DNA of 43,594 nucleotides, from the NCBI GenBank assembly GCA_903835235.1, contig CAILMF010000077.1, forward strand, positions 1 to 43,594. The letters run 5' to 3'. This stretch comes from an uncultured Rhodospirillales bacterium. GTDB taxonomy: Bacteria; Pseudomonadota; Alphaproteobacteria; Acetobacterales; Acetobacteraceae. Shown here piece by piece: positions 18,301 to 35,204 of this stretch. A model generated the notes under the pieces. It was not told where the DNA came from and made no database searches. It was given only the letters and a program-made list of their open reading frames with translations. The number at the start of each line of letters is the position of its first letter. Position 1 is the stretch's first letter. Position numbers and translations under genes: made by a program.

Positions 18301-21300
18301 CGTGGCCAGGTAACCCTGCAGTCCGTCAAGCGAGAGGCTCGCGGCATGGGTCTGTGCCGTCGTCCAGTCCTGGACCTCGGTGACGAGCTGGTAGAAGTGG
18401 CCGTTGGCAGGGTTGAAGACGACATTGGGCGCGGCGCTGTCGCCGCTCAGCAGGTCGTTGCCGACGCCACCATCCAGGCTGTCAGCGCCGTAGCCGCCCG
18501 CCAGCGTGTCGTCGCCCGTGCCACCGGCCAGCGTATCGTCGCCAGTCCCGCCGGCCAGCCCGTCGTTGCCGTCGCCGCCGTCCAGTGCATCGTTGCCGCT
18601 GCCGGCGATCAGGCTGTCATTGCCGGCGCCGCCCGCCATCGTCTGCTCACCGGCCGCGCCGACCAGCGTGTCGTCGCCGATACCGCCGAGCAGGCTGTCA
18701 TTGCCCGTGCCGCCATCCAGTGAGTCGTTGCCGACGCCGCCGTCCAGCGTGTCCTTGCCGTCGCCACCGACCAGCGTATCGCCGCCCTCCCCGGGCAAGC
18801 CACCGAACTCAACGAGATAGGTCCAGATGCCGTTTCCGCTATCGTTCCAGGCCCCACCTGCTCCCGCGCCAAAGATGGCGTAGTTTTCAGTCCCGTTCGC
18901 GTTGTTCGGCTCGCCCTCGTTCCAGGCGCTGTAGCCAGGCTGCGTCGCAGCGCCGGCGTTGTAGAAGGTGAGGCCTGCCTCCGGCCCGCTTGCCCAGACC
19001 CATTGACCTTCATGGCCCTCGTCGGTTGCGCCGATGAAGCCGTTGGCGAAGTGGCTGGCGAGGAACGCCTGCTCCCCGGCGCTGGTGACGGTGGCGAGGT
19101 AGCCATGCAGGCCACCGATGGTCATGCTTGCCGCAGCCGTAAGCGCGGCGTTCCAGTCCAGTTGGGTGGTCACCAACGTATAGAGGTGCCCGTTCTCCGC
19201 GTTGAAGGCGTAACCGCTGGTATCGATGTTGTTGTCGCCGACCAGCTGGTTGTCGCCAGCGCCGCCGACCAGGCTGTCGCTGCCCAGGCCGCCGGTCAGC
19301 ACATCGTTGCCGTCGCCGCCCGCCAGCGAGTCATCGCCCACCCCGCCGTCAAGCGTATCCGCCGCGGCGCCGCCGACCAGGCTGTCATTGCCACCGGCGC
19401 CACTGAGGCTGACTGCCCAGTTCGCCCCGAGAATGACGTCGTCGCCGACCGAGCCGATGAAGCCGGCGAAGCCCGCCACCGTGTCGCCACCGGAGAGCAC
19501 GGCGAAGGTACCGGCGGAGACGACGTCGGTGAAGTTCTTGCCGGTGAGGTCGAAGGTGCCCGCGGCACTCGCCACCAGGCCGAAGGCACTGCCGGGTGGC
19601 GCCAGGTTGTTGCCGAGGCCGTCCTGCGTGAACCAGACCAGGTCCTGCACCTGCGCGAACTGCGCCGCCGTCAGGGTGACCAGGCCCTTGATGTCCAGTT
19701 GTTCGACCGAGGTGAGCAGCAAGCCGCTGAGGTCGAAGCCGTAGCTGGCGATGCCCTGGAAGTTGGCGGTGTCGTAGCCGTCGCCGCCATCGAAGCTGGA
19801 GTTCGACGTCAGCGAGTCGGCCTCGGAGAACACGGCCACATCGTCGCCGGCGCCGCCGAGGATGCTGTTGCTGCCGGTGCCGCCCACCAGGATGTCGTTG
19901 TCGTCGCTGCCCGCCAGCGTGTCGTCGCCGGCTTCGCCGAACAGGTGGTCGCTGCCGGCACCGCCCGCCAGTGCGTCGTTGCCGTCGCCGCCCAGCAGCG
20001 TGTCGATGCCATCGCCACCGCCCAGGACGTCATCGCCCGCATTGCCGGCGATGCTGTCGTCGCCGGTGTCGCCCATCAGGCTGTCAGCGCCGTTGCCCCC
20101 GACCAGCACGTCATTGCCGTCGCCGCCATCCACCAGGGAGCCACTGTCCGCAGCCAGCACCGTGTCGTCGCCGGTACTGGCGGTGAAGCCGGCAAACTGC
20201 GCGTCCACCTGCTTGCTCGCCAGGTCATAGGCACCGGCATCGGCGGCCACCAGGCTGTAGGCATAGCCGCCATCATTGGCGAAGGTGGTCAGCTGCGTGA
20301 ATTGCGCGAGGTTGAGCGTGAAGCTGCCGCGCAGCAAAAGCTGCTCGACGGAGATGAAGGTCATGCCGCTGATGTCGAGCCCGGCAAAGACGTCGTACCC
20401 TGTGAATTGCGCGGTATCGAACCCCAGGCCACCTTCGTAGCGCTCCGCTCCTGGCGCATCCGAGGCGACGAAGATGGCAAGGTCGTTGCCATCGCCGCCC
20501 AGCAGAATGTCGTGGCCCTCGCCGCCGACCAACGTGTCGTTGCCCAGGCCGCCCGCGAGGTAGTCAGCCCCGGCGTCGCCAGACAGGCTGTCGTTACCGT
20601 TGCCACCGTCCAGCGTGTCGTTGCCGTCGCCACCCACAAGAGTGTCGTCGCCCTCGCCACCGTAGAGCCTGTTGGCAGCTTCATTGCCGACCAACATGTT
20701 GTCCAGGGCGTTGCCGCTGCCGTCGATGTCCGCAATGCCGACCAGCATCATCGTTTCGATATTGGCGCCGAGGGTAAAGGAGACGCTGCCCTGCACCGTG
20801 TCGGCGCCGCCATTGGCGAGTTCGATCGTCAGGTCGTTGGCGCTGTCGACGATATAGAGGTCGTCGCCGAAGCCGCCCGTCATCGTGTCGTCGCCCTCGC
20901 CGCCCGAGAGAGTATCGCTCAACCCCAAGCCAGAGCCGCCGCCGGGCATACCACCGAACTCGACCACGCTGCCGAGCGGGTACCACCCGAAGAAGTCGTC
21001 CCAGCCATTCTGGTAGCCAAGGGAGACGTAATTCTGGGTGCCGAGATCGCCGGCGGCGTTGTTGGGATTGCCGGATGCGAAGGCATTGAAGCCGGGCTGG
21101 CTGGCGGCGCCCAGGCTGTAGAACACCGTACCGGCCTCTGGCCCGGTCAGCCATTGCCACTGGCCCTCGACGGCGGCGTCGCTGCCGCCGACCCAGGACA
21201 ACTGTTCGCCATTGATGGTGTGGACGAAGGCCCATTCAGCTTCGCTGGTAACGGTAGCCAGGTAGCCCTGCAATCCGTTGAGCGTGAGCGAGGCGGCATT

Positions 21301-24300
21301 CGTCTGCGCCGTCGCCCAGTCCATCGCCGTGGTGATGAGCTGGTAGAAGTGCCCATTGTCGGGGTTGAAGAACACGTTCGGCGCAAAGCTGTCGCCGGTC
21401 AGCACATCGTTGCCGCTGCCGCCCTCCAGGCTGTCCGACCCGCCGCCGCCGTCCAGCGTATCGTCGCCGTCGCCGCCCAGCAGCGTGTCGTTGCCGTCCT
21501 GGCCGCTCAGGCTGTCGTTGCTGGCCAGGCCGCTCAGCAGGTTGCGGCCGGCATTGCCGAGCAGCTCGTTGTCCAGGGCATTGCCGATGCCGTCGATGGC
21601 TGCGGTGCCGGTCAGCTCCAGCCGTTCGATGTTGTCGCCGAGCATCCAGCTGACGCTGCTCCGCACCTTGTCGAGGCCGGCGTTCAGCGCCTCGATCAGC
21701 ACCTCCGTCGTCGCGTTGACGATGTAGATGTCGTCGCCCGCACCACCGACCATCAGGTTGACGCCGCCAGCACCGTCCATCAGGTCATTGTTGTCGCCGC
21801 CATCGAGGCAATCATTGCCGGTGCTGCCGGTAAGCGTGTCGTTTCCGCCAGCGCCCGCCAAAGTCATGTTGGTGTTGATGCCGGTGGCATCGATGAGGTC
21901 GGCGTATTGGTTGCCGGCAACAACCTCGATATTGCGCAGCGTGTCGGTGGAAAGATTACCGTCCTCGCCCACCAGGTCGCCACTGAACGCATGCATGTTC
22001 AGCCCGGTATCCGGGCCACCGAAGTAGGAGTCGATGCCGTCGCCGCCATCCAGGCTGTCGTTGCCCTTGCCGCCGGCCAGCGAGTCATTGCCGGTGCCGC
22101 CCACCAGCGTGTCGGCGGCGGAGCTGCCGATGAGGATGTCGTTGCCGCCGCCGCCGTAGAGAGTCAGGCTGCTGCCGTAGAGGCCGTTGACGCCGGTTAT
22201 GGTGTCGTTGCCGGCACCGCCGATGATCGTCTCGATGCTGATCAGGGTGTCGATGCGGATAGCGGTGCTTACCGGCTGCAGACCATCGGTGCTGACCAGC
22301 GTGACGGCATCCACCGCCCTGAGGCGCAGCGGCTGGGTGGCGGTGTAATCGGCGAAGCTGACAAGCTGGTTGCCGAGCGTGCCGTCCATGGTGTCGTTGC
22401 CGAGGCCGCCGACCATCGTGTCGGTGCCACCGCCACCCACCAGGCTGTCGTCGCCGGCGCCGCCATCCAGGGTGTTGCTGCCGGCATCGCCGTACACCGT
22501 GTCGTTGCCCGTGCCGCCGAACAGCAGGTCGTTGCCGTCATTGCCGCGCAGCGAGTCATTGCCGTCACCGCCGAGCAGCGTGTCGCTTCCGGCATTGCCG
22601 GTAAGTGTATCGGCGCCGCCGAGCGCATCCAGGTAGTCCGGCCCGCTGGTGCCAACCAGCGTGTCATTGCCACTGGTTCCCTTCGCGGAGGCGCCGGAGA
22701 AGGTGCCGGCCACGAAGTCCGTCGTGGCCAGGGTGAAGCCCGCGCCGCCAAGCAGCCGCTCGACCAGGTCGCCGGCTGTGAGGGTGCCGGTAAGGTCGGT
22801 GTCGACGATCAGCCAGCCGCCACCCGCGCTGGAAGCCTGGAAGAAGGCCCCTTCAGCGGCGCTGCCGCCATTGCCCGGCAGGGCCAGCCCCAGGCTCAGC
22901 GACGCCACCGTACCGCTGAGCGCGCCCTGCCAGAACAGCAGCCCTGGCGAGCCGTCCGCATTGGTGAAGGCGCCCAGGCCGTTGTTGAGGTTGAGCTTGT
23001 CACCCTCGGCCGAGCTGAAGTCGGCGATGGTATCGGTGGCGCCCAGAGTGGACCAGTCCGGGATCAGCGCGTTGTTCAGATAGACCAGGCCGAACAGGTC
23101 GGCGCCGATGCCGCCGGTCAGCAGGTCCACGCCGGCATGGCCGGCCAGCGTATCGCTGCCGGCACCGCCCAGCAGGCTGTCACTGCCGCTGCCACCGGCC
23201 AGGCTGTCGTTGCCGTCATTGCCTTGCAGGCTGAAATTGGTGCCGAGGCCTTCGGCATTGATGCTGTCGTTGAAGCTGCCACCCAGGATCACCTCGATGG
23301 AGGCCAGGATATCCGCGGCGTTGCTGCCGTCATTGCCGGTCAGCACGTTGTTGATCACTGTCAGCGACAGGGCGGCAGTGGTGCCGGCGACGAAGCTGTC
23401 CGTGCCGTCGCCGCCGTCCAGGCTGTCATTGCCGCCACCGCCGGCCAGCGTGTCGTTGCCGCTGCCGCCCTGCAGCGTGTCGCGGCCGCTGCCGCCCCCC
23501 AGGCTGTCGTTGCCCGCGCCGCCCTGCAGCATCATCGGCGCCGTGTAGAGCGCGGCATTGATGCTGTCGTTGCCGGCGCCGCCGAGGATGCTCTCGAAGC
23601 CCGTGGCCGTATCCGTGCCGCCCAGGCCGTCGCTGCCGACCAGCGTGGTGGCGTTGGTGGCGACCAGGTTGATGCCCTGGGTGGCGGTGTTGTCAGCGTA
23701 GGTCAGCAGGTCGGTGCCGGCGCCGCCGTCCAGGCTGTCATTGGCCGCGCCGCCGGCCAGCGTGTCGTTGCCGTCGCCACCGACCAGCGTGTCGTCGCCC
23801 GGGGCCGCGGTGCCCTCGCCGTTCAGGCCGCCGAACTCGACCAGGTAGGCATGGGCGGTGCCCGCAAGCGCATCGTTCCACTGCACGCCGGAGCCATAGC
23901 GGATGACAGCGTAGTTCTCGGTCGGGACATTGCCGTTGTTCGGCTCGTCGCCGATCCAGTCGCTGTAGCCGGGCTGCGAGGCGGCGCCTCGGTTGTAGAA
24001 GGTAGTGCCCGCCTCCGGCCCGGTGGCCCAGACCCACTGGCCTTCATGGCCTTCATCGGTGGCGCCGATGTACAGCTGGGACACGCTGGCGAAATTGGCC
24101 TTGAGGAAGCTTGCCTCGTCGGCGCTGGTGATGGTGGCGAGATAGCCCGGAATACGTGTGAGGTCACCCTTGGTCAGCTTCAGGCCGGCGGCAGCGTCCC
24201 GCGCCGCCTGCCAACTCGCCACCGTGTTCGATACCGCCTTGTAGGCATGGCCGTTGCCGGCGTTGTAGGCGAAGCCATTATTCGACAATGTAACCTGATC

Positions 24301-26415
24301 AAACGCGCCCAGCGCGCCGACATCAAACTCTGTCAGATAGCCGTGCGGGACGGACGGCGAGTCGTTCCATTGCCCGGCGTTGTAGGCGAAGACAGCGTAG
24401 TTCTCGGCGCCGGGGCCATTGGCGTTGTTCGGCTCGTTGGGTGCCCAGTTGCTGTAGCCGGGCTGGGTTGCCGCGCCGGCATTGTAGAAGATGGTGCCGG
24501 CTTCCGGCCCCGTCGCCCAGACCCACTGGCCTTCCTTGGCCGCGTCGGTCGCGCCGACGAAGATCTCGGAGGCGCCGGTGATCTGGGTCTTGAGGAAGGC
24601 GTCCTCGCCCGCGCTGGTGATGGTGGCGAGGTAGCCGTGCAGGCCGCCGATGGTCATGCCGGCAGCGGCGGTCTTCGCCGCGTCCCAGCTGAGCGCAGAG
24701 GTCACCAGCTTATACAGGTGGCCGCTGGCGGCGTAGAAGGCGTAGCCGCTCAGGTCCAGGCCGACCAGGTCCCCGGCGCCGCCCACCAGGCTGTCGTCAC
24801 CGGCGCCGCCGGAGAGGCTGTCATCGCCGCGGTTGCCCAGCAGCGTGTCGTTGCCGGCGTCGCCGCTCAGCGTGTCGTTGCCGACCCCGCCGCGCAGCAC
24901 GTCGTTGCCGTCGCCGCCGAGGATACTGTCGTTCACCGTATTGCCGGTGATGCTGTCGTCGCCGGCCCCGCCATCAACACTGGTCTGGTGGGTGGTGAAG
25001 GTTAAGTTATCCTTACCGCTTGTACCGTTGTAGAAATTTTCGTAGGTCAACGTGTAGTGCTTGGTAACAGACGGCAGTGTGTAATTGTAACTGGAGCTAC
25101 CCAGCCGAATTTTCTGGGAAGCAAGGTCAAAGCTGTGGCTGTAAACTGGCTCGCTTGTTTTATCGAAGCCGAATTTAAAATCGTATCCCAAGAAGGTGAG
25201 TTTACCCTGGAACATTGCTCCAGCCTGGAGCAACGTAATGTCAATGCCCTCCTCCCAGAGCAGGTAGTCAGTGCGGGTCATCTGGCCGGCGGCGGTATAG
25301 ACGGCATCAACGGTGAAGCTGCCTTCCCCCTCCGGCGAGTGGAAGTGGAAGTTGTTGCCCAGTTCCCCGGCCACGGTTTCGCCGAAAGATGTGGTCATGA
25401 CTACGCCCACGGCAGTGGGCCTAAAGACGAAGTCCTGCTCAAGCTTGCCGGTGACGTGGAGTTCAGCCTTGGCAAGGGTCAGGCTGACGCCGATGTTTTG
25501 GCCAAAGAAGCCAATACTATCGGAAAAGCTGAAGAGCGGCAAAGCACCGGGAATAATGAGCGGAGCCAAAACGTTGATGAAATCGACGCTGCCGGTGATG
25601 AACGCACCGCCGACGGCACGGATTTCAAACGCGCCGAACTGACCGCCGGCCACGGCGCCCTGCGTCGCATCGGCCTTGGCCGGCCTTGGGATACCGAGCA
25701 CCAAGCCGCCCGCCTGGTCGGAGAGATCAAGGGAGCCGCTGGTGCCCCCCATGGTCTCGCCCGTGGCGATCGAGGCCAACAGCTTGACCGCGTCGAAGAT
25801 ATCAGCGCCGGTGACGGCCCTGCTCAGCGGAAGTTCGCGGTTCACATTGACATTAAACAGGTCCCGGCTGGCGCTGGTGCTGTCTTCGTAGCCAAGAACG
25901 TTGTACCCCGCGCTGCCGGTCACTTTTGCATAGGCAGAAAAACCGTATTTCAGCAGGAGTTGGGCGGAACTGTTGGCGATGTCCAGCCCGGTGGTGGAAA
26001 GGTGTAGCGACGTCTGTCGCCACTTCGTGGTGTCGATGTCGGACCCGATATTCCAACTCGAACTTTTGCTGGAGACCACTTCGTCGAGGTTCAGAGTCAG
26101 GTCCGCAGCAAAGTCGCCGCCCCTGAGGTCGACGCGCAAGCTTGGGCCAAAGGTCAGGTCGCGGATGCCCGCCTTGAAGGCAAGATCGACGTAGGCGGAG
26201 CCCACGCCTCGGATGCCCGCCTTGAAGGGTAAGTGGATTTCAGCGTTTTTTATTGTATCGATCACATGGTTGGCGGTGTCATTTCCGGCCGCAAACGCTA
26301 GTGCAGATTGGAGTTTCGAAAGGGTGATGACCGCCTGGTCGAAGTTATAGACGTGGTTGCCGATCCCGTTATTGCCCCAGATGCTGGTCTTCAGGGCGAA
26401 GTCGAGCTGCGTCAT
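12370..26415 (-). CDS. Giant RTX adhesin-like protein with five C-type-lectin-like domains (4681 aa)
   Basis: One uninterrupted 14-kb frame from ATG 26415, with AAGGTGA 9 nt upstream. Residues 1 to about 475 are a beta-rich region I do not recognise. From there on, GGxGxDxLx RTX nonapeptides dominate. Five C-type-lectin-like domains are inserted near residues 556-697, 711-862, 1679-1820, 2401-2538 and 2663-2802. Each has GYLATxTS, a WxxGxEAG-like core, EPNN (NPNN in the third) and a WND or similar motif before a final YLxEF. Residues about 2875-4605 are roughly 19 tandem units of 84-102 aa built on DTYVVDNxGDVVxE, GTDTVxTSLASYSL, AVENLxYTG and GNALANxITGG. The C-terminus (LIHLASGTTVHVTDYAFA) looks like a type I secretion signal, and there is no Sec signal. 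Expected: Ca2+-folded, T1SS-exported cell-surface or secreted adhesin binding glycans. The HlyB/HlyD genes at 6611-10164 are the likely exporter. Confidence 0.93.
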   Translation of the reverse strand: MTQLDFALKTSIWGNNGIGNHVYNFDQAVITLSKLQSALAFAAGNDTANHVIDTIKNAEIHLPFKAGIRGVGSAYVDLAFKAGIRDLTFGPSLRVDLRGGDFAADLTLNLDEVVSSKSSSWNIGSDIDTTKWRQTSLHLSTTGLDIANSSAQLLLKYGFSAYAKVTGSAGYNVLGYEDSTSASRDLFNVNVNRELPLSRAVTGADIFDAVKLLASIATGETMGGTSGSLDLSDQAGGLVLGIPRPAKADATQGAVAGGQFGAFEIRAVGGAFITGSVDFINVLAPLIIPGALPLFSFSDSIGFFGQNIGVSLTLAKAELHVTGKLEQDFVFRPTAVGVVMTTSFGETVAGELGNNFHFHSPEGEGSFTVDAVYTAAGQMTRTDYLLWEEGIDITLLQAGAMFQGKLTFLGYDFKFGFDKTSEPVYSHSFDLASQKIRLGSSSYNYTLPSVTKHYTLTYENFYNGTSGKDNLTFTTHQTSVDGGAGDDSITGNTVNDSILGGDGNDVLRGGVGNDTLSGDAGNDTLLGNRGDDSLSGGAGDDSLVGGAGDLVGLDLSGYAFYAASGHLYKLVTSALSWDAAKTAAAGMTIGGLHGYLATITSAGEDAFLKTQITGASEIFVGATDAAKEGQWVWATGPEAGTIFYNAGAATQPGYSNWAPNEPNNANGPGAENYAVFAYNAGQWNDSPSVPHGYLTEFDVGALGAFDQVTLSNNGFAYNAGNGHAYKAVSNTVASWQAARDAAAGLKLTKGDLTRIPGYLATITSADEASFLKANFASVSQLYIGATDEGHEGQWVWATGPEAGTTFYNRGAASQPGYSDWIGDEPNNGNVPTENYAVIRYGSGVQWNDALAGTAHAYLVEFGGLNGEGTAAPGDDTLVGGDGNDTLAGGAANDSLDGGAGTDLLTYADNTATQGINLVATNATTLVGSDGLGGTDTATGFESILGGAGNDSINAALYTAPMMLQGGAGNDSLGGGSGRDTLQGGSGNDTLAGGGGNDSLDGGDGTDSFVAGTTAALSLTVINNVLTGNDGSNAADILASIEVILGGSFNDSINAEGLGTNFSLQGNDGNDSLAGGSGSDSLLGGAGSDTLAGHAGVDLLTGGIGADLFGLVYLNNALIPDWSTLGATDTIADFSSAEGDKLNLNNGLGAFTNADGSPGLLFWQGALSGTVASLSLGLALPGNGGSAAEGAFFQASSAGGGWLIVDTDLTGTLTAGDLVERLLGGAGFTLATTDFVAGTFSGASAKGTSGNDTLVGTSGPDYLDALGGADTLTGNAGSDTLLGGDGNDSLRGNDGNDLLFGGTGNDTVYGDAGSNTLDGGAGDDSLVGGGGTDTMVGGLGNDTMDGTLGNQLVSFADYTATQPLRLRAVDAVTLVSTDGLQPVSTAIRIDTLISIETIIGGAGNDTITGVNGLYGSSLTLYGGGGNDILIGSSAADTLVGGTGNDSLAGGKGNDSLDGGDGIDSYFGGPDTGLNMHAFSGDLVGEDGNLSTDTLRNIEVVAGNQYADLIDATGINTNMTLAGAGGNDTLTGSTGNDCLDGGDNNDLMDGAGGVNLMVGGAGDDIYIVNATTEVLIEALNAGLDKVRSSVSWMLGDNIERLELTGTAAIDGIGNALDNELLGNAGRNLLSGLASNDSLSGQDGNDTLLGGDGDDTLDGGGGSDSLEGGSGNDVLTGDSFAPNVFFNPDNGHFYQLITTAMDWATAQTNAASLTLNGLQGYLATVTSEAEWAFVHTINGEQLSWVGGSDAAVEGQWQWLTGPEAGTVFYSLGAASQPGFNAFASGNPNNAAGDLGTQNYVSLGYQNGWDDFFGWYPLGSVVEFGGMPGGGSGLGLSDTLSGGEGDDTMTGGFGDDLYIVDSANDLTIELANGGADTVQGSVSFTLGANIETMMLVGIADIDGSGNALDNMLVGNEAANRLYGGEGDDTLVGGDGNDTLDGGNGNDSLSGDAGADYLAGGLGNDTLVGGEGHDILLGGDGNDLAIFVASDAPGAERYEGGLGFDTAQFTGYDVFAGLDISGMTFISVEQLLLRGSFTLNLAQFTQLTTFANDGGYAYSLVAADAGAYDLASKQVDAQFAGFTASTGDDTVLAADSGSLVDGGDGNDVLVGGNGADSLMGDTGDDSIAGNAGDDVLGGGDGIDTLLGGDGNDALAGGAGSDHLFGEAGDDTLAGSDDNDILVGGTGSNSILGGAGDDVAVFSEADSLTSNSSFDGGDGYDTANFQGIASYGFDLSGLLLTSVEQLDIKGLVTLTAAQFAQVQDLVWFTQDGLGNNLAPPGSAFGLVASAAGTFDLTGKNFTDVVSAGTFAVLSGGDTVAGFAGFIGSVGDDVILGANWAVSLSGAGGNDSLVGGAAADTLDGGVGDDSLAGGDGNDVLTGGLGSDSLVGGAGDNQLVGDNNIDTSGYAFNAENGHLYTLVTTQLDWNAALTAAASMTIGGLHGYLATVTSAGEQAFLASHFANGFIGATDEGHEGQWVWASGPEAGLTFYNAGAATQPGYSAWNEGEPNNANGTENYAIFGAGAGGAWNDSGNGIWTYLVEFGGLPGEGGDTLVGGDGKDTLDGGVGNDSLDGGTGNDSLLGGIGDDTLVGAAGEQTMAGGAGNDSLIAGSGNDALDGGDGNDGLAGGTGDDTLAGGTGDDTLAGGYGADSLDGGVGNDLLSGDSAAPNVVFNPANGHFYQLVTEVQDWTTAQTHAASLSLDGLQGYLATVTSAAEQEFVRSLIGDTWFWIGASDAATEGQWQWVTGPEAGVVFFNLGAVTQPGFAAWSATFGEPNNFEGDQNYAFLWGQFGWGDNSGDPQSYSLVEFGGMPGDGGSNWQNDTLSGGDGNDTLDGGYGNDLLSGDAGNDSLVGGLGDDSLNGGSGNDTMDGGAGNDTFDGGVGADVLVGGLGSDSYLVDSSADQIVEAAGGGADTILTTLNTLSLALLSNVENLSFIGTGNFNGIGNAAANAMLGGTGKDTLAGAAGDDTLDGGAGADSLDGGTGNDTYVIDNTGDKVVEAAGSGTDTVLTSLVSYSLVTLTAVENLGYTGTANFDGTGNNLANGITGGVGNDTLVGGGGNDTLAGGAGADSLTGGLNDDTYVVDNLGDVVVERLNQGTDTVQTSLASFSLALLTAVENLAFIGTGGFAGTGNALGNGLAGGAGNDTLDGGVGADTMAGGLGDDSYVVDNIGDVVSENAGEGTDTVLTSLASFSLVALTALENVTYSGAIAFIGTGNALANGLTGGRGSDALAGGVGNDTLVGAAGNDTLDGGSGADSMVGGVGNDSYVVDNIGDIVVENAVEGTDAVSTSLTRFSLATLTAVENLSFTGTASFTGTGNALANAIASARGNDTLDGGTGADSLTGGLGNDTYLVDNAGDVVAENVGEGTDSIRTTLASYSLATLTALENLAYTGTGAFAGTGNALANIVTGGAGNDTLDGAVGADTMVGGLGNDTYLVDNAGDVVTESADEGTDLVRTSLATYSLASTAAAENLSFTGSAAFTGTGNALANMLTGGAGNDSLDGGGGADTMAGGLGDDSYVVDNAGDIIVENAGAGIDTVGTALTSFSLASFGAVENLTYSGASAFSGGGNDLANAISGNRGADALTGGAGDDTLAGGFGDDTLDGGSGADSLTGGVGNDTYVVDNIGDVVLENAIEGTDTVMTSLASFSLATLGAVDNLIYLGANAFAGAGNALSNVITGGTGNDTLDGAAGFDTTAGGLGDDTYVVNSQSDLIVENAGEGTDTVLTNLTSYNLTTLLAVENLTYTGSAGFAGIGNGLANLIISGAGNDSMRGGDGDDTLDGGVGVDSMAGGLGNDSYFVDNIGDRISELTASGTDTVLTTLASYSLATFGTLENLSYLGTAGFIGIGNALANAVTGGTGADTLTGAAGEDTLDGGAGADSLVGGAGNDAYVIDNLGDMVVEVAGEGTDTVRTTLASFGIAAFGAVENLAYAGSGTFSGIGNALANVLTGGAGNDTLDGATGNDTMIGGAGDDSYVVDSLGDVMLETAAGGTDTVRTSLASYSLAMLTTIENLTNAGSNDFTGIGNVLANAITGSTGNDTLVGDEGDDTLDGGGGADSMAGGIGDDTYVVDTLVDVVVENLIEGTDTVRTTLATFSLAPFHAIENLTYGGSGSFVGLGNVLANVITGGAANDTLDGGGGGDTLAGGDGGDTYIVNDVSIMVVEAAGQGTDTIRTSMSLYLMDSQANVENLTYTGTGSFISFGNALANVITAGAGGSALDGGAGDDTLVGGSGGDTLTGGDGADSLDGGLGNDTYIVDSAIDLIAEAAGGGTDTVLTGLASYSLAAFAAVEALVYTGVAAFAGTGNAAANTITGGAGKDTLFGGDGSDTLDGGAGSDSLSGGFGDDTYVVDSLTDLVLENAGEGTDTVLTNLASYNLTLLTAVENLTYNGSAGFIGIGNGLANLITSGAGNDSMRGGDGDDTLDGGVGADSMFGGLGNDTYVIDNIGDRISELTASGTDTVLTTLASYSLATIGTLENLRFAGAGSFAGTGNTGANAITGGVGDDTLDGGTGADTLTGGVGDDSYLVDNAGDVVVENAAEGFDKVWTSLASFSLVSLGAVENLSYTGTSAFTGSGNALANVIAGGAGADVLEGGAGADTLVGGLGNDTFAFAAGQANGDAIVDFDGKGSLVGDKLLFKGYGTAASGAKLTQVNATDWQVSSADHTINELIHLASGTTVHVTDYAFA
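12600..17800 (-). repeat. Tandem array of about 19 RTX-linked units inside the giant gene
   Basis: The units translate to 84-102 residues and repeat head to tail over about 5.2 kb. Each combines one or more GGxGNDTL nonapeptides with a VVDNxGDVV-E-GTDTV-AVENL-GNALAN block. Units are diverged at DNA level except for a near-identical pair: the two-unit block around 12980-13400 closely matches 14925-15320, including ISELTASGTDTVLTTLASYS in both. Confidence 0.85.
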
Positions 26416-26489
26416 GGCCGTTCACCTTATCGGGATCGGCAATAAACCTCGCTCTCCTTCCTGAGGAGCGGACACACTCGTGCATTCGC

Positions 26490-26522
26490 CATATGATCCG
26501 CATATGACCATTACATGACTGT
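26490..26522 (-). promoter_or_regulatory. Three direct repeats at 11-bp phase upstream of the RTX gene (candidate operator)
   Basis: CATATGA at 26490-26496 and again at 26501-26507, then TACATGA (5 of 7 matches) at 26512-26518, are spaced exactly 11 bp, one helical turn. They lie 75-103 bp upstream of the giant gene's start codon, in the AT-rich part of the gap. CATATG is itself palindromic. Phased repeats at this distance suggest binding of a regulator; the BLUF-TetR protein encoded just upstream is a candidate. Confidence 0.4.
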
Positions 26523-26999: not shown

Positions 27000-28013
27000 C
27001 TACCGCACCCTCAGCGTGGCAAGAAAAGCGGCAACCAGCCCAGCCCGTACCCGCGGCGAACGCAGCAGCAACGCATCCTTCAGGAAGGCGGTCCGGATGG
27101 CCGCAGCCATGCCGGACAGACCCAGGGCCAGTTGCTCATCCCCCAGATGCGCGCAGGGAATCCCGCAGCGGGCCATGGCGACGCGCATGGCGTCCGCCAC
27201 AATCCACATGCCGTCGTCGAACACGTCGGTATGCCGCTGGTACATCGTGCGGATGATGGGGAAGCGGCCATGCGCCGCCAGCAAGCCATCGGCCATGCGC
27301 TCCACTATCCAGGTGACGATGTGCTCCTCGTCGCGGAAGGTGGTTTGGGCAAGGTCTTGCAGGGCGCGGTTGGTCCCGGTGATCTGGCGTCGCCGTGTTA
27401 CCGCGCGCAGGAAGGCATCGGTGTTGGTGAAGTACCGATAGGCCGATTGCAGCGAGACATTGGCCTCACGCGCCGTGCCATCCAACGAGAAAGCGCCAAG
27501 TCCATCGCGCTCGATCGTCACCTCGGCAGCGGTGAACAACTGGTCCACCGTCTGGGACGCGCGCTGCTGGCTGGGCTTGATGCGGAGTTTGTCCAGCAGG
27601 AACGCCCCGAACCGTGTCCGGGTGAGGCTGGCGAGGCTATCGTCCCGCAGCTGGTAGTTCAGGTCAGGCCCATGACCGGGGCGTTGCAGGTTGGCGGCGA
27701 ACGCCGCGCGCTCCGCCGCATCCGCACCAGGTACCAGGTGGGCCCAGTCGCTGTAGCTGGGGATATCGATCTCGCGGTCGATGAGGCAGAGGATTTCGCT
27801 ATGACGTTGATCCGCCTCGATAGCGTCATAGAGGTCCCCAATGATTGCGTGGGGGCCTTCGATCAACTGGACAAAGCGGCTTCCTTCATAAATCAGGCGC
27901 CCAGTGACCCCGAGTTGCCGGTTCTTCGCCGTGGCACTTTCGACCAGTTGGAAGAGCGCTGCCGGAGCGAGCGGCCCTGCCGCGGCGCTTGTATAGACAA
28001 TGCAACGATTCAC
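27000..28013 (-). CDS. BLUF blue-light sensor domain fused to a TetR-type DNA-binding regulator
   Basis: Starting from GTG 28013 the protein has 337 aa. Residues 1 to about 95 are a BLUF flavin photoreceptor domain. Tyr7, Asn31, Gln49 and Trp90 match AppA Tyr21, Asn45, Gln63 and Trp104 with exactly the same spacing (24, 18 and 41 residues). GVTGRLIYEGSRFVQLIEG is the family core. The residue at the AppA Met106 position is His92. Residues about 151-200 form a TetR N-terminal HTH (FTAAEVTIERDG, TAREANVSLQSAYRYF). The rest to 337 is a helical TetR-like ligand/dimer region. The frame is open to ATG 28214, but those 67 extra residues resemble nothing and lack a ribosome site. It probably binds DNA as a dimer, with binding altered by blue light through FAD. 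The giant RTX gene is the next gene downstream on the same strand, so it is a likely target (inference). Confidence 0.85.
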   Translation of the reverse strand: MNRCIVYTSAAAGPLAPAALFQLVESATAKNRQLGVTGRLIYEGSRFVQLIEGPHAIIGDLYDAIEADQRHSEILCLIDREIDIPSYSDWAHLVPGADAAERAAFAANLQRPGHGPDLNYQLRDDSLASLTRTRFGAFLLDKLRIKPSQQRASQTVDQLFTAAEVTIERDGLGAFSLDGTAREANVSLQSAYRYFTNTDAFLRAVTRRRQITGTNRALQDLAQTTFRDEEHIVTWIVERMADGLLAAHGRFPIIRTMYQRHTDVFDDGMWIVADAMRVAMARCGIPCAHLGDEQLALGLSGMAAAIRTAFLKDALLLRSPRVRAGLVAAFLATLRVR

Positions 28014-28243
28014 CGCGCCGCGCCGCAGACCGTAACCGAGAACGTCGTGCCGCGAAAAGACGCAGGCGTTTCGCCAGATAACGTCATGTGGGTACGATCC
28101 TACGAGGTTGCCGCTCCCAATGAGTTTGGGGTCTGGCAGGATGATGGTATTAACGCTCCAACAGCAAAAACCATGCCTGACCGGAATATGATCCGGCGTG
28201 GAAAAGGACGCCATCTGGAAACTGGTCGGCGTCCAGAGGACGA

Positions 28244-28390: not shown

Positions 28391-28609
28391 TTGAGTGGCC
28401 GATCCAGGTTGGCCTGTTGCTGAACACCATCTCGATCCGGCTGAGCCGATGGCGGCCTGCGTTCAGCGTTCGGCACAGCCTGCTTCGTGCGCAGCATTCT
28501 CATGATCGGCGTGCCGCAATCATAGCAACATCCTGATCGCCCTATCCGCTTCACTGTGCTGCGGCACAGAGCGAATAGTCGACCCACGCCGAGCGCGATC
28601 GAGACCCGC

Positions 28610-28894
28610 ATGACCAAGCCAGCATCCAACCAGCAACGCGGCCTCGCCGCCTTCATCGCGGCCAAGGCGACCCACATCACCGTCCGGGTGCCGATGACCA
28701 TCAGGCGGCGGCCGGGGCGGAAGACGGTGGTCACGCCGATGGCGCTGGCCGGCGTCCGGGCCGTCCCGACGCGCGCCGACCCGGCGCTGGTGAAGGCGTT
28801 GGCGCGGGCGTTCCGGTACCGGCGGATGCTGGACGAGGGGCACGACGCCTCGATCAGCGAGATGGCGGCGGCGGAGAAAATCGAGCGCGGGTAA
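28610..28894 (+). CDS. Recombinase-associated small protein, C-terminally truncated (copy 1)
   Basis: A 94-aa frame from ATG 28610. After a Gly/Ala leader it reads VPMTIRRRPGRKTVVTPM, then TRADPALVKALARAFRYRRMLDEG and SISEMAAAEKIERG. I know this as the start of a small conserved alphaproteobacterial protein, related to the HTH region at the end of serine recombinases, that is usually found beside site-specific recombinase genes. Relatives continue ERGYLGRLLRLTLLAPDIVEAIL. Here a TAA follows ERG, and after one codon the same frame enters a second copy, so copy 1 has lost its C-terminal half. No recombinase gene is present next to it. Function unknown; probably non-functional. Confidence 0.5.
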   Translation: MTKPASNQQRGLAAFIAAKATHITVRVPMTIRRRPGRKTVVTPMALAGVRAVPTRADPALVKALARAFRYRRMLDEGHDASISEMAAAEKIERG

Positions 28895-28897
28895 TCA

Positions 28898-29281
28898 TGG
28901 CTACCGCTGAAGATTCGGCATCGGTCGGGGCGGAAGACTGTCGTGACACCAATGGCGCTGGCTGGCGTTCCGGCCGTCCCAACGCGCGCCGACCCGTCGC
29001 TGGTGAAGGCGATGGCGCGGGCGTTCCGCTACCAGCGCATGCTCGACCAAGGTCGCCACGAATCCTTGACCGAGCTGGCGGCTGCCGAAAACATATACCG
29101 ATCCTTCCTGGGCAAGCTCCTCAGTTTGACGCTGCTGGCGCCAGACCTGGTCGAGGCACTGCTGGATGGCCGTTGCGATCCCGGGCTGCCGCGCCTGCTC
29201 CAGCCCCTTCCGGCATGCTGGCACCAGCAGGAAGTCGCATTGGCTGCCGAACGCCGGCCGGCCACGTTGCCGTTCGGCTGA
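28898..29281 (+). pseudogene. Recombinase-associated small protein, 5'-truncated (copy 2)
   Basis: In the same reading frame as copy 1, six bases after the start of its TAA stop, the sequence resumes at PLKIRHRSGRKTVVTPM, matching copy 1 from its residue 30 or so. It then runs on through TRADPSLVKAMARAFRYQRM, LTELAAAENI and LGKLLSLTLLAPDLVEALLDG to a Pro-rich end (LPRLLQPLPACWHQQE). It therefore holds the C-terminal half missing from copy 1 but lacks its own beginning; GTG 28943 is the first possible start. The arrangement points to unequal recombination between two related genes. The sequence differs from copy 1 by many substitutions, so the two were already diverged. Confidence 0.55.
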
Positions 29282-29672
29282 TCTAGAAAAATAACTCGCC
29301 ATCCGGCTGAGGGGCGTGTTGGTAGCCTACCTCGTGCTCGTGAAGACTTCTCGGCGCGAGCCATCTCGCAGGAAGCGCCCGACGGCCAACATCACCGACA
29401 CTATGTATTCGCCGATGTAGGCGGCACGAGGTCGAGTGCTGCAAGCCATGAGTTTGTGCCCGATTGTCATCGCCAGGCGATGGCGAACGCAACTCTCAGC
29501 CCTGCCGCTTCCAAGACAAGATCAAGAAATCAATGCGTTATTGGGTTGGGAAAAAATCGTCCAAGTCCCGAGGTGCGGAGATAGCCGGCCTCTCAGAGAG
29601 AGAAACCACCGCCATATTTTAGGGACCACTCCCAAGCCTTGCGCGCAAATCGCGGCCAAACATGCGCCTCAG

Positions 29673-29877: not shown

Positions 29878-30759
29878 TCACAGACAGAAACTGACGCCCC
29901 CGTTCTCTTCGACGTCATATCCGCCCAGCCGCTTTGCGCGTGCCACGAAGTCGGGCTGGCGGGCGAAGCGCATCAGTCGCTGCACCTGAGCCCCGAAATA
30001 GTGGCGCCGCTCCATCACGAGGTCGAAGCGTTCGCGGAATAGCGGGACGAAGCAGAGCCCGCGCGCGGCGGCCTCGGCGCCAATGCCAAAGCCCACATCG
30101 GCGCGTCCTTCCTGCACCGCGGCAGCAACCTCATCCTCGGCCAGCGCCGGTTCGGGCAGGAACCGCACGGCATCGAGCCGGATGCCCGCTTCGCCCAAAA
30201 GATGCACCAGCAGCACATGGCTGCCCGCGCGTGGCTGCCGCCCGACAACGCTGATGCCCGGTCGCGCCAAATCCGGGATGGCCTGGATACCACGCGGATT
30301 GCCGGCGGGCAGAATGAGCCCCTGTGACCGCCATGCCCAGACAATGCCGACCATGGGGCGGCGCGCCAGGGTGTCGCGCGCCGCGGGTTCGTTGAAGGCG
30401 CCGGTGTCCGGGTCGCGCAGATGCATGGCCGCCGCCATCGCCTCGCCCGAGCCCAGCGCCGACAGGCCATCGAGGCTGCCGCCGGCGCGCAGCGCAAGAC
30501 CGCAGCCGGATTGGCGTACTGCCCAATCGAGGAGCGGGTCGTGGCTCCCGGCCAGGATCGGCGGGGGATCGAGCCGCGGCTCAGCCTCCGGCCCGTCAGC
30601 CTGGGTGGTCAGCCACCGTTCCAATTGGGCCCGCGGGAACAGCCACTTGCCGCCAAGCTGGGCGGCCGGCACGCGGTGCGAGCGTGCGAGGTCATAAAGC
30701 GAGCGTTCGGACAGGCGCAAAAACTCGGCCGCCTCGCGCAGGGTCAGAATATCGGGCAT
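29878..30759 (-). CDS. HTH regulator with periplasmic-binding-protein-like (molybdate/tungstate type) domain
   Basis: A 293-aa protein from ATG 30759. The first about 50 residues are an excisionase/MerR-like HTH (LTLREAAEFLRLSERSLYDLARSHRVPAAQLGGKWLFPRAQLERWL). Residues about 85-280 form a PBP-like domain of the kind fused to MoeA proteins and to one-component Mo/W regulators (PBP_like, PF12727 type): RAGSHVLLVHLLGEAGI, DEVAAAVQEGRADVGFGIG and FVPLFRERFDLVMERRHYF. The same domain occurs at the end of the MoeA fusion at 38121-40118. The open frame extends 29 codons upstream, but the HTH begins right after ATG 30759. It is divergent from the tup operon across about 100 bp, so it is probably the repressor or activator of W/Mo uptake, sensing the oxyanion directly. 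Confidence 0.85.
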   Translation of the reverse strand: MPDILTLREAAEFLRLSERSLYDLARSHRVPAAQLGGKWLFPRAQLERWLTTQADGPEAEPRLDPPPILAGSHDPLLDWAVRQSGCGLALRAGGSLDGLSALGSGEAMAAAMHLRDPDTGAFNEPAARDTLARRPMVGIVWAWRSQGLILPAGNPRGIQAIPDLARPGISVVGRQPRAGSHVLLVHLLGEAGIRLDAVRFLPEPALAEDEVAAAVQEGRADVGFGIGAEAAARGLCFVPLFRERFDLVMERRHYFGAQVQRLMRFARQPDFVARAKRLGGYDVEENGGVSFCL

Positions 30760-30860
30760 TTGATGGCAGAAAACGGCATCTGCTGCGCTCTCGTCAAGCC
30801 CCAAGCCAATTGACCCAACAGCTTTCCGAACGCAGTTTGCGGCCAAGCTGGGAATTTGCC
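30760..30860. promoter_or_regulatory. Divergent control region of the tungstate/molybdate locus
   Basis: The 101-bp gap separates the HTH-PBP regulator from tupB and must hold both promoters. TTGACC at 30810-30815 is a good -35 match toward tupB, but the expected -10 position (30833-30838, cagttt) is poor. CGCAGTTTGCG (30831-30841) is a short palindrome between this -35 and the tupB start and could be part of an operator. Confidence 0.35.
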
Positions 30861-31565
30861 GTGAACGACCTCGGAGCCGCCGCCGCGACTGCGCTGAACC
30901 TTGTGCTCACCGCCGATCCGGCGGTGGCGCAGATCGTGCTGCTGTCGTTGCGGGTCAGCTTCTCTGCCCTGCTGATCGCGGCCCTCGTCGGGCTGCCGCT
31001 CGGCGCGCTGCTGGCGGTCGCCCGCTTCCCGGGGCGGGGTGCAATCCTGACGGTGCTGAATGCGCTGATGGGGCTGCCGCCGGTGGTGGCGGGGCTGCTG
31101 ATCTACCTGCTGCTGTCGCGCTCCGGCCCGCTTGGGCATCTCGGCCTGCTCTTCACGCCGGGTGCGATGATCATCGCCCAGGCGGTCCTGATCACTCCGA
31201 TCCTCGCCGCCCTGTCACGCCAGGTCCTGGAAGGGCTGTGGGAGGAGTACGCGGAGCAACTGCGCTCCTTCGGGGCGGGCCCGGTGCGCGCCGTCCCGAC
31301 GCTGCTCTGGGACGGGCGATTTGCGCTGCTGACCGTGCTTCTGGCGGGCTTTGGCCGGGCCAGTGCCGAGGTCGGCGCGGTGATGATCGTCGGCGGAAAC
31401 ATCGAGGGCTTCACCAGGGTGATGACCACCGCGATCGCGCTCGAGACCAGCGCGGGCAACCTGCCCTTGGCGCTGGCCCTCGGCATGGTGCTGATGTCGA
31501 TCGTGCTGGTCGTGAATGCGCTCGCGCAAGCCTCGCGCGACTTCGCCACCCGGGCGGGCGCGTGA
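30861..31565 (+). CDS. tupB: Tungstate ABC transporter permease TupB
   Basis: A 234-aa permease with five to six hydrophobic segments and the binding-protein-dependent transport signature around residues 120-165 (EEYAEQLRSFGAGPVRAVPTLLWDGRFALLT). SLRVSFSALLIAALVGLPLGALL and the stretch MTTAIALETSAGNLPLALALG near the C-terminus are typical of TupB/WtpB-type tungstate permeases. GTG 30861 was chosen because similarity begins there; the frame is open further upstream across the divergent promoter. The stop overlaps the tupC start (TGATG). It is the first gene of a ten-gene operon, with TupC as ATPase and TupA as binding protein. Confidence 0.88.
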   Translation: MNDLGAAAATALNLVLTADPAVAQIVLLSLRVSFSALLIAALVGLPLGALLAVARFPGRGAILTVLNALMGLPPVVAGLLIYLLLSRSGPLGHLGLLFTPGAMIIAQAVLITPILAALSRQVLEGLWEEYAEQLRSFGAGPVRAVPTLLWDGRFALLTVLLAGFGRASAEVGAVMIVGGNIEGFTRVMTTAIALETSAGNLPLALALGMVLMSIVLVVNALAQASRDFATRAGA

Positions 31566-32278
31566 TGCGCGCACCCGACACCATCCTGCCGCTGCGTGCC
31601 GAAGGCTTGGGTTTCTCCGCCGGCGGGATCACCATCCTGTCCGACGTCGCGCTCACCCTCGAGGCCGGCTCCCCCAGCATCATCGTCGGTCCGAACGGCG
31701 CCGGGAAATCCGTGCTGCTGCGGCTGCTGCACGGGCTGCTGACGCCCAGCACGGGGCGCGTCCTCTGGGCGGGCGATGCCGCCCGCCGCCAGGCGATGGT
31801 GTTCCAGCGGCCGGTGCTGCTGCGCCGCAGCGTGCTGGCCAACGCCGTCTATCCGCTGAAGCTGGCCGGCATCACGGCCGCGGAGCGCGAGTCCCGCGCC
31901 CGCGCTGCCTTGGAGATGGTGGGCCTCGCAGCACTCGCCGACCGCCCGGCGCGCCGGCTGTCAGGCGGGGAGCAGCAGCGCCTGGCACTCGCCCGCGCCG
32001 CCGCCCTGTTGCCCGAGGTGCTGTTCCTCGACGAGCCCTGCGCCAGCCTCGATCCCACGGCGACCCGCGCGGTCGAGGAGATCGTGGGCACGCTTGCCGC
32101 GCGTGGCACCAAGATCGTGATGACCACGCACGACCTCGGTCAGGCCCGTCGCCTGGCGGGCGAGGTGCTGTTCCTCAACCGCGGCCGCCTGCGCGAGCAG
32201 ACACCGGCCGCCGCCTTCTACAACCAGCCTGCCACACCAGAAGCCGCGGCCTTCCTGCGCGGCGAACTGGTGTGGTGA
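31565..32278 (+). CDS. tupC: Tungstate ABC transporter ATP-binding protein TupC
   Basis: A 237-aa ABC ATPase. Walker A VGPNGAGKS is near residue 41, Q-loop AMVFQRPVLLRRSV near 78, signature RLSGGEQQRLALARA near 135, Walker B VLFLDEPCASLD near 155 and the H-loop TTHDLGQARRLA near 190. The last part, VLFLNRGRLREQTPAAAFYNQP, is the usual end of TupC/ModC-like ATPases, without a TOBE extension. ATG 31565 shares a base with the tupB stop, so translation is coupled. It powers TupB for high-affinity tungstate import. Confidence 0.9.
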   Translation: MRAPDTILPLRAEGLGFSAGGITILSDVALTLEAGSPSIIVGPNGAGKSVLLRLLHGLLTPSTGRVLWAGDAARRQAMVFQRPVLLRRSVLANAVYPLKLAGITAAERESRARAALEMVGLAALADRPARRLSGGEQQRLALARAAALLPEVLFLDEPCASLDPTATRAVEEIVGTLAARGTKIVMTTHDLGQARRLAGEVLFLNRGRLREQTPAAAFYNQPATPEAAAFLRGELVW

Positions 32279-32301
32279 AGGGCCCATCCGGGAGACCCGC
32301 C

Positions 32302-33135
32302 ATGTTCCGCCGCCTTTTCCTCGTTGCCGCTGCCGCGGCACTTCTCCTGCCAGGCGCACCATCCGCGCAGGAGCGCTTCATCACCGTCGCCAGCACCACC
32401 AGCACCGAACAATCCGGCCTGTTCCGCCACATCCTGCCGATCTTCACGGCGGAGACGGGCATCACGGTGCGCGTCGTGGCGCTCGGCACCGGCCAGGCGC
32501 TGGATGTCGGCCGCCGCGGCGACGCCGATGTGGTGTTCGTGCATGACCGGGTGGCCGAGGAGCGCTTCGTGGCCGAGGGTTTCGGTGGGCCGCGCCGGCA
32601 CGTGATGTTCAACGACTTCGTCGTCGTCGGCCCCGCCGCCGATCCCGCGCGCGTCAACGGGCTGCGCGACACCAACGACGCGCTGCGCCGCATCGCCGAA
32701 GCCCGCGCGGCGTTTGTCAGCCGTGGCGACCGCTCCGGCACGCATGCCGCTGAGCTCCGCCTGTGGCAGCTTGCCGGCGTCGACCCTGCGGCCGGCCGGG
32801 GCCAATGGTACCGCGAGGTCGGCCAGGGCATGGGCCCGGCGTTGAACACCGCCGCGGCGCAGAACGCCTATATCCTGACCGACCGCGGAACCTGGCTCAG
32901 CTTCCGGAACCGGCAGGACCTGCGCATCGTCGTCGAGGGCGACGCCAGGCTATTCAACCAGTACGGCGTGATGCTCGTGAACCCGCAGCGGCACCCGCAT
33001 GTGAAGGTCGCCGACGGCCAGCGCTTCATCGACTGGATCCTCTCGCCGGCCGGGCAGCGCGCCATCGCCTCCTACCAGATCAATGGCGAGCAGCTGTTCT
33101 TCCCGAACGCGACCCAGCCGGAGCCGACCTCGTGA
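32302..33135 (+). CDS. tupA: Tungstate-binding periplasmic protein TupA
   Basis: A 277-aa protein with a Sec signal peptide (RRLFLVAAAAALLLPGAPSAQE; cleavage around residue 23). The mature part starts with the TupA oxyanion motif, here ASTTSTEQSGL (canonical TTTS). It continues with LGTGQALDVGRRGDADVVFVHD, MFNDFVVVGP and FVSRGDRSGTHAAELRLW, which supply the conserved Arg, Ser and Thr that hold tungstate in this family. Start ATG 32302 has GGGAGA upstream. It delivers tungstate to TupBC. Family members strongly prefer tungstate over molybdate. Confidence 0.92.
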   Translation: MFRRLFLVAAAAALLLPGAPSAQERFITVASTTSTEQSGLFRHILPIFTAETGITVRVVALGTGQALDVGRRGDADVVFVHDRVAEERFVAEGFGGPRRHVMFNDFVVVGPAADPARVNGLRDTNDALRRIAEARAAFVSRGDRSGTHAAELRLWQLAGVDPAAGRGQWYREVGQGMGPALNTAAAQNAYILTDRGTWLSFRNRQDLRIVVEGDARLFNQYGVMLVNPQRHPHVKVADGQRFIDWILSPAGQRAIASYQINGEQLFFPNATQPEPTS

Positions 33136-33926
33136 GGCTCGCGGCTCTTCTCGCGGCCCTGATCTTCGCCATGCCGGCCGCCGCCGAGCCGGTGCGTCTC
33201 GCCGCCGCCGGCTCGCTGAGGGCGGCGCTCGCCGAGGTGGCACAGGCCTTCGAACGTGCACCAGGCGGCGGCGCGGTCACGCAAACCTACGCGCCCTCCG
33301 GATTGCTGCGACAGCGAATCGCCGGCGGTGAGCCCTTCGAGTTGTTCGCCTCCGCCAACATGGAGCATCCGGAAGCGGTGGGCCGCGAGCGCAACCGCCC
33401 GACCGTGCTCTTCGCGCGCAACGCGCTGTGCGCCATCGCGCGGGCGGGGCTCGACGTGACGCCGGCTACGCTGCTGGAGCGCATGCTCGACCCCGCGCTG
33501 CGGCTCGGCACCTCGACGCCGCGCGCCGATCCTGCCGGCGACTACGCCTTCGCGCTGTTCGGGAGGGCGGAGGCTGTTCGTCCTGGCGCGCGCGCGGCGC
33601 TGGAAGCCAAGGCGCTGCTGCTGACCGGCGGGCCCGATAGCCCGCGCCCACCGCAGGGGCGCGACCTCTATGCCTGGCAGTTCGAGCGCAACGCTGCCGA
33701 CCTGTTCCTGACCTACTGCACCAACGCCGTACTGGCGCGCGCCGCCGATGCGTCGCTGCGACAGGTCGCGGTGCCGGAGGCGCTGTCGGTCGGCGCGGAT
33801 TACGGGCTGATCCTGCTATCGGACCGGCCGGAGGCCGTGCGCTTCGCGATGTTCCTCCTATCTTCTGCCGGACAGGCCATCCTGGATCGTCACGGCTTCG
33901 TCGCACCAGGCCTGCCAGCCCGCTGA
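33132..33926 (+). CDS. ModA-like molybdate/oxyanion substrate-binding protein without its own permease
   Basis: A 264-aa protein from GTG 33132, which overlaps the tupA stop (GTGA). A short signal peptide (LAALLAALIFAMPAAAE) is followed by LAAAGSLRAALAEVAQAFE, the typical ModA/SBP_bac_11 opening with the Ser that contacts the anion. YAPSGLLRQRIAGGEPFELFASANMEHPEAV follows, and then the second anion-loop region, STPRADPAGDYAFALFG. No ModB or ModC gene follows, so it may feed TupBC, work with the BtuCD-like pair downstream, or act with a permease elsewhere. Its place inside the operon makes an oxyanion ligand likely. Confidence 0.8.
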   Translation: MRLAALLAALIFAMPAAAEPVRLAAAGSLRAALAEVAQAFERAPGGGAVTQTYAPSGLLRQRIAGGEPFELFASANMEHPEAVGRERNRPTVLFARNALCAIARAGLDVTPATLLERMLDPALRLGTSTPRADPAGDYAFALFGRAEAVRPGARAALEAKALLLTGGPDSPRPPQGRDLYAWQFERNAADLFLTYCTNAVLARAADASLRQVAVPEALSVGADYGLILLSDRPEAVRFAMFLLSSAGQAILDRHGFVAPGLPAR

Positions 33927-33944
33927 TCCGTGAAAGGCATTGCC

Positions 33945-34160
33945 ATGCTCAAGCTCTCCGCCCGCAACCAGTTCCCCGGCACCATCACCGGCATCCGCAA
34001 GGGCGTCACCACGACGCATGTCACGATCGAAGTGGCACCTGGCGTCATTGTCACCGCCGCAATCACCAATGAGTCCGCCGAAGAGTTGGGCCTCGCGGTC
34101 GGCGGCGAGGCGGTGGCGGTGATCAAGGCCTCCGATGTAATGGTCGGCACCAAGGGATGA
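33945..34160 (+). CDS. Molybdopterin-binding (Mop/TOBE) small protein
   Basis: A 71-aa protein from ATG 33945 with AAAGG 8 nt upstream; a GTG at 33930 is also open. MLKLSARNQFPGTITGIRKG, EVAPGVIVTAAITNESAEELGL and GEAVAVIKASDVMVG are the hallmarks of a single TOBE/Mop domain. Such molbindins form hexamers that store or sense molybdate or tungstate in the cytoplasm. The stop overlaps the next start (ATGA). Confidence 0.9.
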   Translation: MLKLSARNQFPGTITGIRKGVTTTHVTIEVAPGVIVTAAITNESAEELGLAVGGEAVAVIKASDVMVGTKG

Positions 34161-35194: not shown

Positions 35195-35204
35195 GGCGCC
35201 CAGC

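Follow-up and report, generated by a model that had tools for sequence, protein, structure and literature searches.

In the EL222-type LOV-HTH regulators, a flavin blue-light domain and a DNA-binding helix-turn-helix (HTH) are combined in one chain (PMC4844311). The E. coli BLUF-EAL protein YcgF (BluF) controls a separate repressor, YcgE, and has been linked to biofilm (PMC4844311, PMC5812497), and the BLUF protein AppA acts on the separate repressor PpsR (PMC4844311). In a published census, 64% of BLUF proteins were short single-domain proteins and 34% were EAL-linked, eight bacterial LOV proteins with an HTH were counted, and HTH proteins were stated in general terms to be quite frequent among the effector functions of blue-light flavoproteins (PMC4844311).

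The window studied here is the whole stretch of 43,594 nucleotides of contig CAILMF010000077.1 from an uncultured Rhodospirillales bacterium (Acetobacteraceae; GCA_903835235.1). It contains a gene for a protein with a BLUF domain followed by a TetR-type HTH and a TetR-like C-terminal region. By analogy, the closest described systems are LOV-HTH regulators such as EL222 in principle, and YcgF/YcgE and AppA/PpsR in the sensor. As in EL222, a flavin blue-light sensor and a DNA-binding domain are joined in one chain, and the likeness would extend to the working principle if light controls DNA binding of the window protein; however, the sensor is LOV in EL222 and BLUF here, and the HTH of EL222 is of the LuxR type rather than TetR. 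In YcgF/YcgE, BLUF also acts on a DNA-binding repressor (YcgE is of the MerR type), but through two proteins instead of one chain. AppA/PpsR likewise shares the effect of BLUF on transcription, but sensor and DNA binder are separate and the C-terminal part of AppA is not TetR. Among TetR/AcrR regulators, represented by EthR, the likeness lies in the HTH and C-terminal part, which align along the TetR half of the family profile, whereas the N-terminal BLUF sensor domain sets the window protein apart; typical TetR proteins have a small-molecule pocket and no N-terminal sensor domain.

No description of a BLUF-TetR fusion was found in searches of one open-licence library, in agreement with the initial annotation, which knew of no characterised example. 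A natural protein that couples BLUF directly to a TetR DNA binder would provide a compact gene switch for blue light with FAD as its sole need; it could serve as an optogenetic part and in studies of how a BLUF signal is passed to an output domain. On balance we favour the view that the window protein senses blue light through a flavin and, as a one-component regulator, controls neighbouring genes whose products are secreted or surface proteins.

Gene structure and domain composition

The fusion frame runs from 28013 to 27000 without an internal stop, and the single open frame that had been claimed to hold both domains was thus found intact. Its parts are as follows.

27000 to 28013, minus strand: BLUF-TetR fusion gene, 337 aa, GTG start, stop codon at 27000-27002; supported by a paralog and homologs
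27741 to 28004, minus strand: BLUF domain, residues 4-91; PF04940, 1.4e-20
27576 to 27740, minus strand: linker between BLUF core and TetR part, residues 92-146; dN/dS 0.71 over residues 96-145
27399 to 27533, minus strand: TetR_N helix-turn-helix, residues 161-205, with SAYRYF recognition-helix signature; PF00440, 4e-5
27003 to 27398, minus strand: TetR-like C-terminal region, residues 206-337, predicted to be dimerisation/regulatory from the profile-EthR alignment and dN/dS

Upstream, the frame remains open as far as an ATG at 28214. The GTG at 28013 is favoured as the start because DNA similarity between this gene and a second copy on contig C14 of the same genome ends at 28032. In both copies the GTG is overlapped by the stop (TGA) of a short upstream frame, giving GTGA. 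These short frames (28010-28087 in the window and 10211-10516 at the C14 locus, L035) both end in GAAR before the stop; the C14 frame has 101 aa and its beginning resembles an RTX protein.

The BLUF domain matched PF04940 with 73.6 bits against a cut-off of 25, and a second search placed it identically. Tyr7, Asn31, Gln49 and Trp90 are all intact, and their spacings of 24, 18 and 41 equal those between the residues that we take to be the AppA counterparts (Y21, N45, Q63 and W104), which bears out the earlier claim of a complete BLUF core. The BLUF photocycle requires Tyr and Gln; the residues in a study of BlsA were reportedly Y7, Q51 and W92. Among solved structures, the BLUF part matched 2byc best (1.4e-13, with the alignment extending through the Trp), then BlrP1, AppA and photoactivated adenylyl cyclases. 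Two residues past the Trp, just beyond the domain match, the window protein has His92 where Met is usual, a point absent from the initial annotation. The 30 BLUF-only comparators with a residue at this position carried Met in 28 cases and Leu in two, so that Met is not an absolute requirement. The window protein is predicted to bind FAD and to respond to blue light.

The second part of the window protein matched TetR regulators among solved structures (best 5.6e-4). With a seven-member family profile the best TetR match was 7.8e-10, and EthR aligned with profile positions 153-327 (E 1.3e-5), which correspond to the HTH and the C-terminal domain. TetR_N (PF00440) reached 23.7 bits in the window protein, 0.3 bit short of the cut-off of 24, and was above the cut-off in the C14 paralog (25.8) and in homologs from the genomes G110 (35.8), G020 (41.6) and G1126 (31.7). 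No TetR_C Pfam match was found in the window protein; three Microbacteriaceae fusions described below carry BLUF and TetR_C_6 above the cut-off. Of the domain assignment in the initial annotation, BLUF was therefore confirmed by Pfam, but TetR_N fell just under the cut-off in this copy; the fusion of BLUF with a TetR HTH and TetR-like C-terminal part is real, it is found again in homologs, and in the paralog TetR_N passes the cut-off. The window protein is predicted to bind DNA. An AlphaFold model made from two sequences (pLDDT 49.6) was too poor for use.

The second copy and selection on both domains

The paralog (G000:C14:9201-10214) lies on another contig of the same genome and its protein is 88% identical. 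Between the two copies, dN/dS was 0.20 for residues 1-95, 0.71 for residues 96-145, 0.14 for residues 146-210 and 0.11 for residues 211-337, the linker having the highest value among the four parts. The low values on either side of the junction indicate that both domains are maintained by selection. The fusion could also be explained by a sequencing or assembly error that merged two genes, a concern raised in the initial annotation. The slightly low TetR_N score of this copy would agree with such an artefact, and no other support for it was found; against it stand the second copy on the other contig, the homologs in other genera and in another phylum, and the purifying selection on either side of the junction. 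We regard an error of this kind as extremely improbable: the 88% identical paralog, with TetR_N over the cut-off, and the dN/dS between the copies exclude a chance or frameshift artefact. DNA similarity between the copies covers the regulator, part of the gap downstream of it and parts of the following RTX gene, which indicates a linked duplication that counts as one event.

Distribution of the fusion

In Acetobacterales, fusions were found at 10 loci in eight genomes: two each in the source genome (G000) and in Humitalea rosea (G005), and one each in G020, G089, G090, G099, G110 and G1126. The frame of the G090 fusion, at C184, is broken. Nine of the 397 genomes in the family sample had a match at 1e-28; eight of the 397 hold the fusion, that of G090 in pieces, and one of the nine, G167, matches in the BLUF part only. 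In the class sample (385 genomes) and the phylum sample (398 genomes), with five candidates scored per genome, the same strict threshold returned the window's own genome alone. A first scan of genome contigs found no relative and a second found one locus, in Humitalea rosea.

Three further fusion sequences were found on plasmids of Microbacteriaceae, from Curtobacterium flaccumfaciens (six identical plasmid records), Curtobacterium sp. MCJR17_020 and Frigoribacterium sp. NBH87. The plasmid search covered the best 20 of 32 records with the window protein as query and the best 20 of 72 with the Curtobacterium query. Among the records listed, eight, all from Curtobacterium or Frigoribacterium, covered at least 80% of the Curtobacterium query; the other matches among those listed covered mainly BLUF, two of them extending to query residues 160 and 186. 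The public annotation of the Curtobacterium relative is merely 'BLUF domain-containing protein', and the Frigoribacterium fusion is annotated in split form, as a shorter TetR-type protein and an opposite-strand hypothetical protein. The BLUF plus TetR architecture proposed earlier from the single gene is thus present at the 10 Acetobacterales loci and in the three plasmid sequences. Both BLUF and TetR_N exceeded the Pfam cut-off in 5 of these 13 (C14, G110, G020, G1126 and MCJR17_020); TetR_N remained below it, from 23.7 down to 15.7 bits, in the window protein, G005:C10, G005:C7, G089, G090 and G099.

In a tree of 41 BLUF domains including 10 fusions (G1126 and two of the Microbacteriaceae sequences were left out), the fusions did not form one clade (five changes). 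Since only one change is forced by well-supported branches, the tree is compatible with one or several fusion events.

Two matches to the TetR half alone (G222:C20 and G303:C14) were rejected as split relatives, being by eye ordinary short TetR frames near transporter-like genes. Phage cargo was also rejected: a search of 50,697 phage records at 1e-5 gave nothing, and none was seen by pattern in viral contigs.

Photochemical residues across the fusions

Tyr7 and Gln49 are both retained in 7 of the 13 fusions, and in the window protein, its paralog and five other members all of Tyr, Asn, Gln and Trp are present. Tyr7 is replaced by Phe in G005:C7, G090 and G099, and Trp90 is lost in G005:C7 and G099. 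Gln49 is replaced by Gly in the three Microbacteriaceae fusions (L081, L082 and L003), as read by eye in two and by alignment in C. flaccumfaciens. At position 92 the window protein and the paralog carry His, G005:C10 carries Gln, and G089, G090 and G005:C7 carry Leu. The comparators were 31 BLUF-only domains, taken from 41 distinct domains in the fetched loci after removal of identical sequences and those below 75 aa; Tyr and Gln are kept in 30 of them, and the exception (L016), a frame of 100 codons, stops short of the Trp. Loss of Tyr or Gln in 6/13 fusions against 1/31 BLUF-only domains gave p = 0.0014 in Fisher's test, uncorrected for relatedness, and p = 0.04 for the Acetobacterales fusions alone (3/10). 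Light sensing is therefore not common to the whole family, one of the essential residues Tyr and Gln being absent from six members.

These losses, which contrast with the near-constant Tyr and Gln of the BLUF-only domains, together with His92 of the window protein itself, would agree with a different reading, in which the BLUF part serves independently of light, as a flavin/redox or structural module, in an otherwise ordinary TetR-type regulator whose sensor is a relic. For the window protein this appears rather unlikely to us, as its four residues are intact, like those of the paralog and the five other members, and its BLUF part is under purifying selection (dN/dS 0.20). The natural Tyr-to-Phe and Gln-to-Gly relatives could be used to test whether BLUF domains function without the photocycle.

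Neighbouring genes

The preferred reading, a light-responsive regulator of adjacent genes, draws on the neighbourhood. The regulator lies upstream of a giant RTX gene on the same strand, separated from it by a gap of 584 bp.

12370 to 26415, minus strand: giant RTX / HemolysinCabind protein, 4681 aa, with 48 RTX stretches and two C-type lectin stretches; probable target gene

The C14 regulator likewise precedes an RTX frame, which extends over at least 2907 codons until the contig ends. RTX repeats are frequent in the source genome, with at least 147 matches at E<=1e-6 across many frames (150 of 704 candidates scored).

At five of the eight other Acetobacterales loci, the gene adjacent to the fusion codes for a PEP-CTERM protein, according to gene calls from a custom frame-picking script.

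G020: PEP-CTERM protein of 534 aa, upstream; another, convergent, downstream
G089: PEP-CTERM protein of 226 aa, divergent
G090:C184: PEP-CTERM protein of 256 aa, downstream, co-directional
G099: Gly-rich PEP-CTERM protein of 1502 aa, downstream, co-directional; motif at 20.2 bits against a cut-off of 20.7 in the protein scan and 27.5 in the genome scan
G1126: PEP-CTERM protein of 195 aa, convergent; locus looked at after the PEP-CTERM idea arose, same genus as G020

Downstream of the G005:C7 fusion are two proteins without a Pfam match and with double-glycine-like leaders (by eye), followed by HlyD and a C39-peptidase ABC exporter. No secreted or surface-type neighbour was recognised at G110, nor at G005:C10, where there is only a small protein with a signal-like start. 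The number of PEP-CTERM matches per genome ranged from 0 to 55. The chance of at least four PEP-CTERM neighbours in nine loci (G1126 dropped) was 1.8e-7, or 4.3e-5 when four genes per side were allowed, assuming about one gene per kb and independent loci, and the category of secreted neighbour was picked after the first loci had been seen. Among the matches listed, none of 10 BLUF-only genes in the same genomes (G1126 not included) had a PEP-CTERM gene within 17 kb, and the nearest one sharing a contig with a BLUF-only gene was at 18 kb, in G020. The neighbourhood suggests that light may be used by these bacteria for decisions on surface or matrix proteins.

Candidate operator

A dyad was found in the gap between regulator and RTX gene.

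26488 to 26508, no strand assigned: candidate operator; dyad GTCATATG-CGGAT-CATATGGC, which starts 93 bp ahead of the RTX start

The dyads in the two regulator-RTX gaps are positioned alike, starting 93 bp (window) and 95 bp (C14) ahead of the RTX start; the window has GTCATATGCGGATCATATGGC, and C14 has a 29-bp palindrome. In the half-sites, TCATAT and ATATG, the copies are identical at 11/11 positions, compared with 0/7 in the spacer and 30/60 and 36/74 in the flanks. Because the copies are homologous, a common dyad may reflect descent. In the 5.97-Mb assembly, TCATAT-N7-ATATG matched exactly before the two RTX genes only (three strand matches at two places), against 0 matches for the reversed-pattern control. 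The full palindrome with up to two mismatches occurred at 12 sites, against two for the reversed control, and 3 of the 12 are at the two RTX genes. Three of the remaining nine were viewed as possible parts of a wider regulon, an idea that was set aside: one is beside the end of a phage-like frame (C55:275924), one inside a frame (C48:32292) and one just upstream of a 176-aa frame (C48:34112). The dyad score was reached by 99 of 300 shuffles for the window, which is not unusual for its composition, and by 3 of 300 for the C14 palindrome. Palindromes near the genes of other members had no common motif by eye. The dyad is a good candidate for a binding site of the paralogous regulators, and no more.

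The regulator could instead be light-dependent but act on itself or on distant genes, with the RTX adjacency resulting from duplication only. This would be in line with the single duplicated event behind the RTX association, the abundance of RTX genes in the genome, and the palindrome sites with one or two mismatches elsewhere. We give it a rather low probability: the dyad before the RTX start is common to the copies, has diverged less than the sequence around it and is matched exactly nowhere else in the genome; the 300 bp upstream of the window regulator gene yielded no strong dyad; and other members adjoin other secreted-protein genes. This explanation and that of a relic sensor are not mutually exclusive.

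Proposed mechanism

In the favoured reading, that of a blue-light regulator of the adjacent gene, the protein would bind FAD and dimerise, and blue light would rearrange the Tyr-Gln-flavin hydrogen bonds. The change might then be relayed to the TetR part by strand 5 and the helices that follow the BLUF core; a signal route from the BLUF beta-sheet to the following helices is described for BLUF proteins (PMC4844311). The two HTHs could thereby come to be spaced differently on a palindromic operator, for example 26488-26508, the operator being released or gained, and transcription of the downstream RTX surface or secreted protein gene would shift with light. Most TetR proteins are repressors, so that derepression in light would be the likelier sign, although this is still a guess. 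The initial annotation proposed the role of a one-component blue-light transcription factor; the sequence evidence for this protein agrees with that role, which we continue to infer, and the neighbourhood strengthens it.

A broader proposal is put forward tentatively, as a possibility that we consider less likely than not. The BLUF-TetR proteins of two phyla may constitute a class of one-component flavin regulators that is as yet undescribed, and through which, in Acetobacterales, blue light switches neighbouring genes for secreted or surface-matrix products (RTX giants, PEP-CTERM proteins and exported double-glycine proteins). In several lineages the photochemistry might have been lost, leaving a flavin switch independent of light or a constitutive one; the class would then contain both light-on and light-blind members in nature.

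Other features of the loci

A relative of the TetR half, with no BLUF match, was seen in G090 (C33:2649-3479, L043), with a PEP-CTERM motif about 1.2 kb downstream. Upstream of the window regulator, at 28520-29302, are two tandem degenerate recombinase-like gene pieces in which RADPxLVKAxARAFRYxRML can be read twice by eye, and which suggest past mobility. Genes that appear phage-tail-like by eye share contigs with both regulator/RTX pairs (window 41208-43547; L035 10743-13043), starting about 530 bp from the regulator in C14 and about 13 kb away in the window. The stretch at 29878-40118 contains, by eye, tungstate/molybdate and iron-type ABC transporter-like genes and molybdopterin biosynthesis-like genes.
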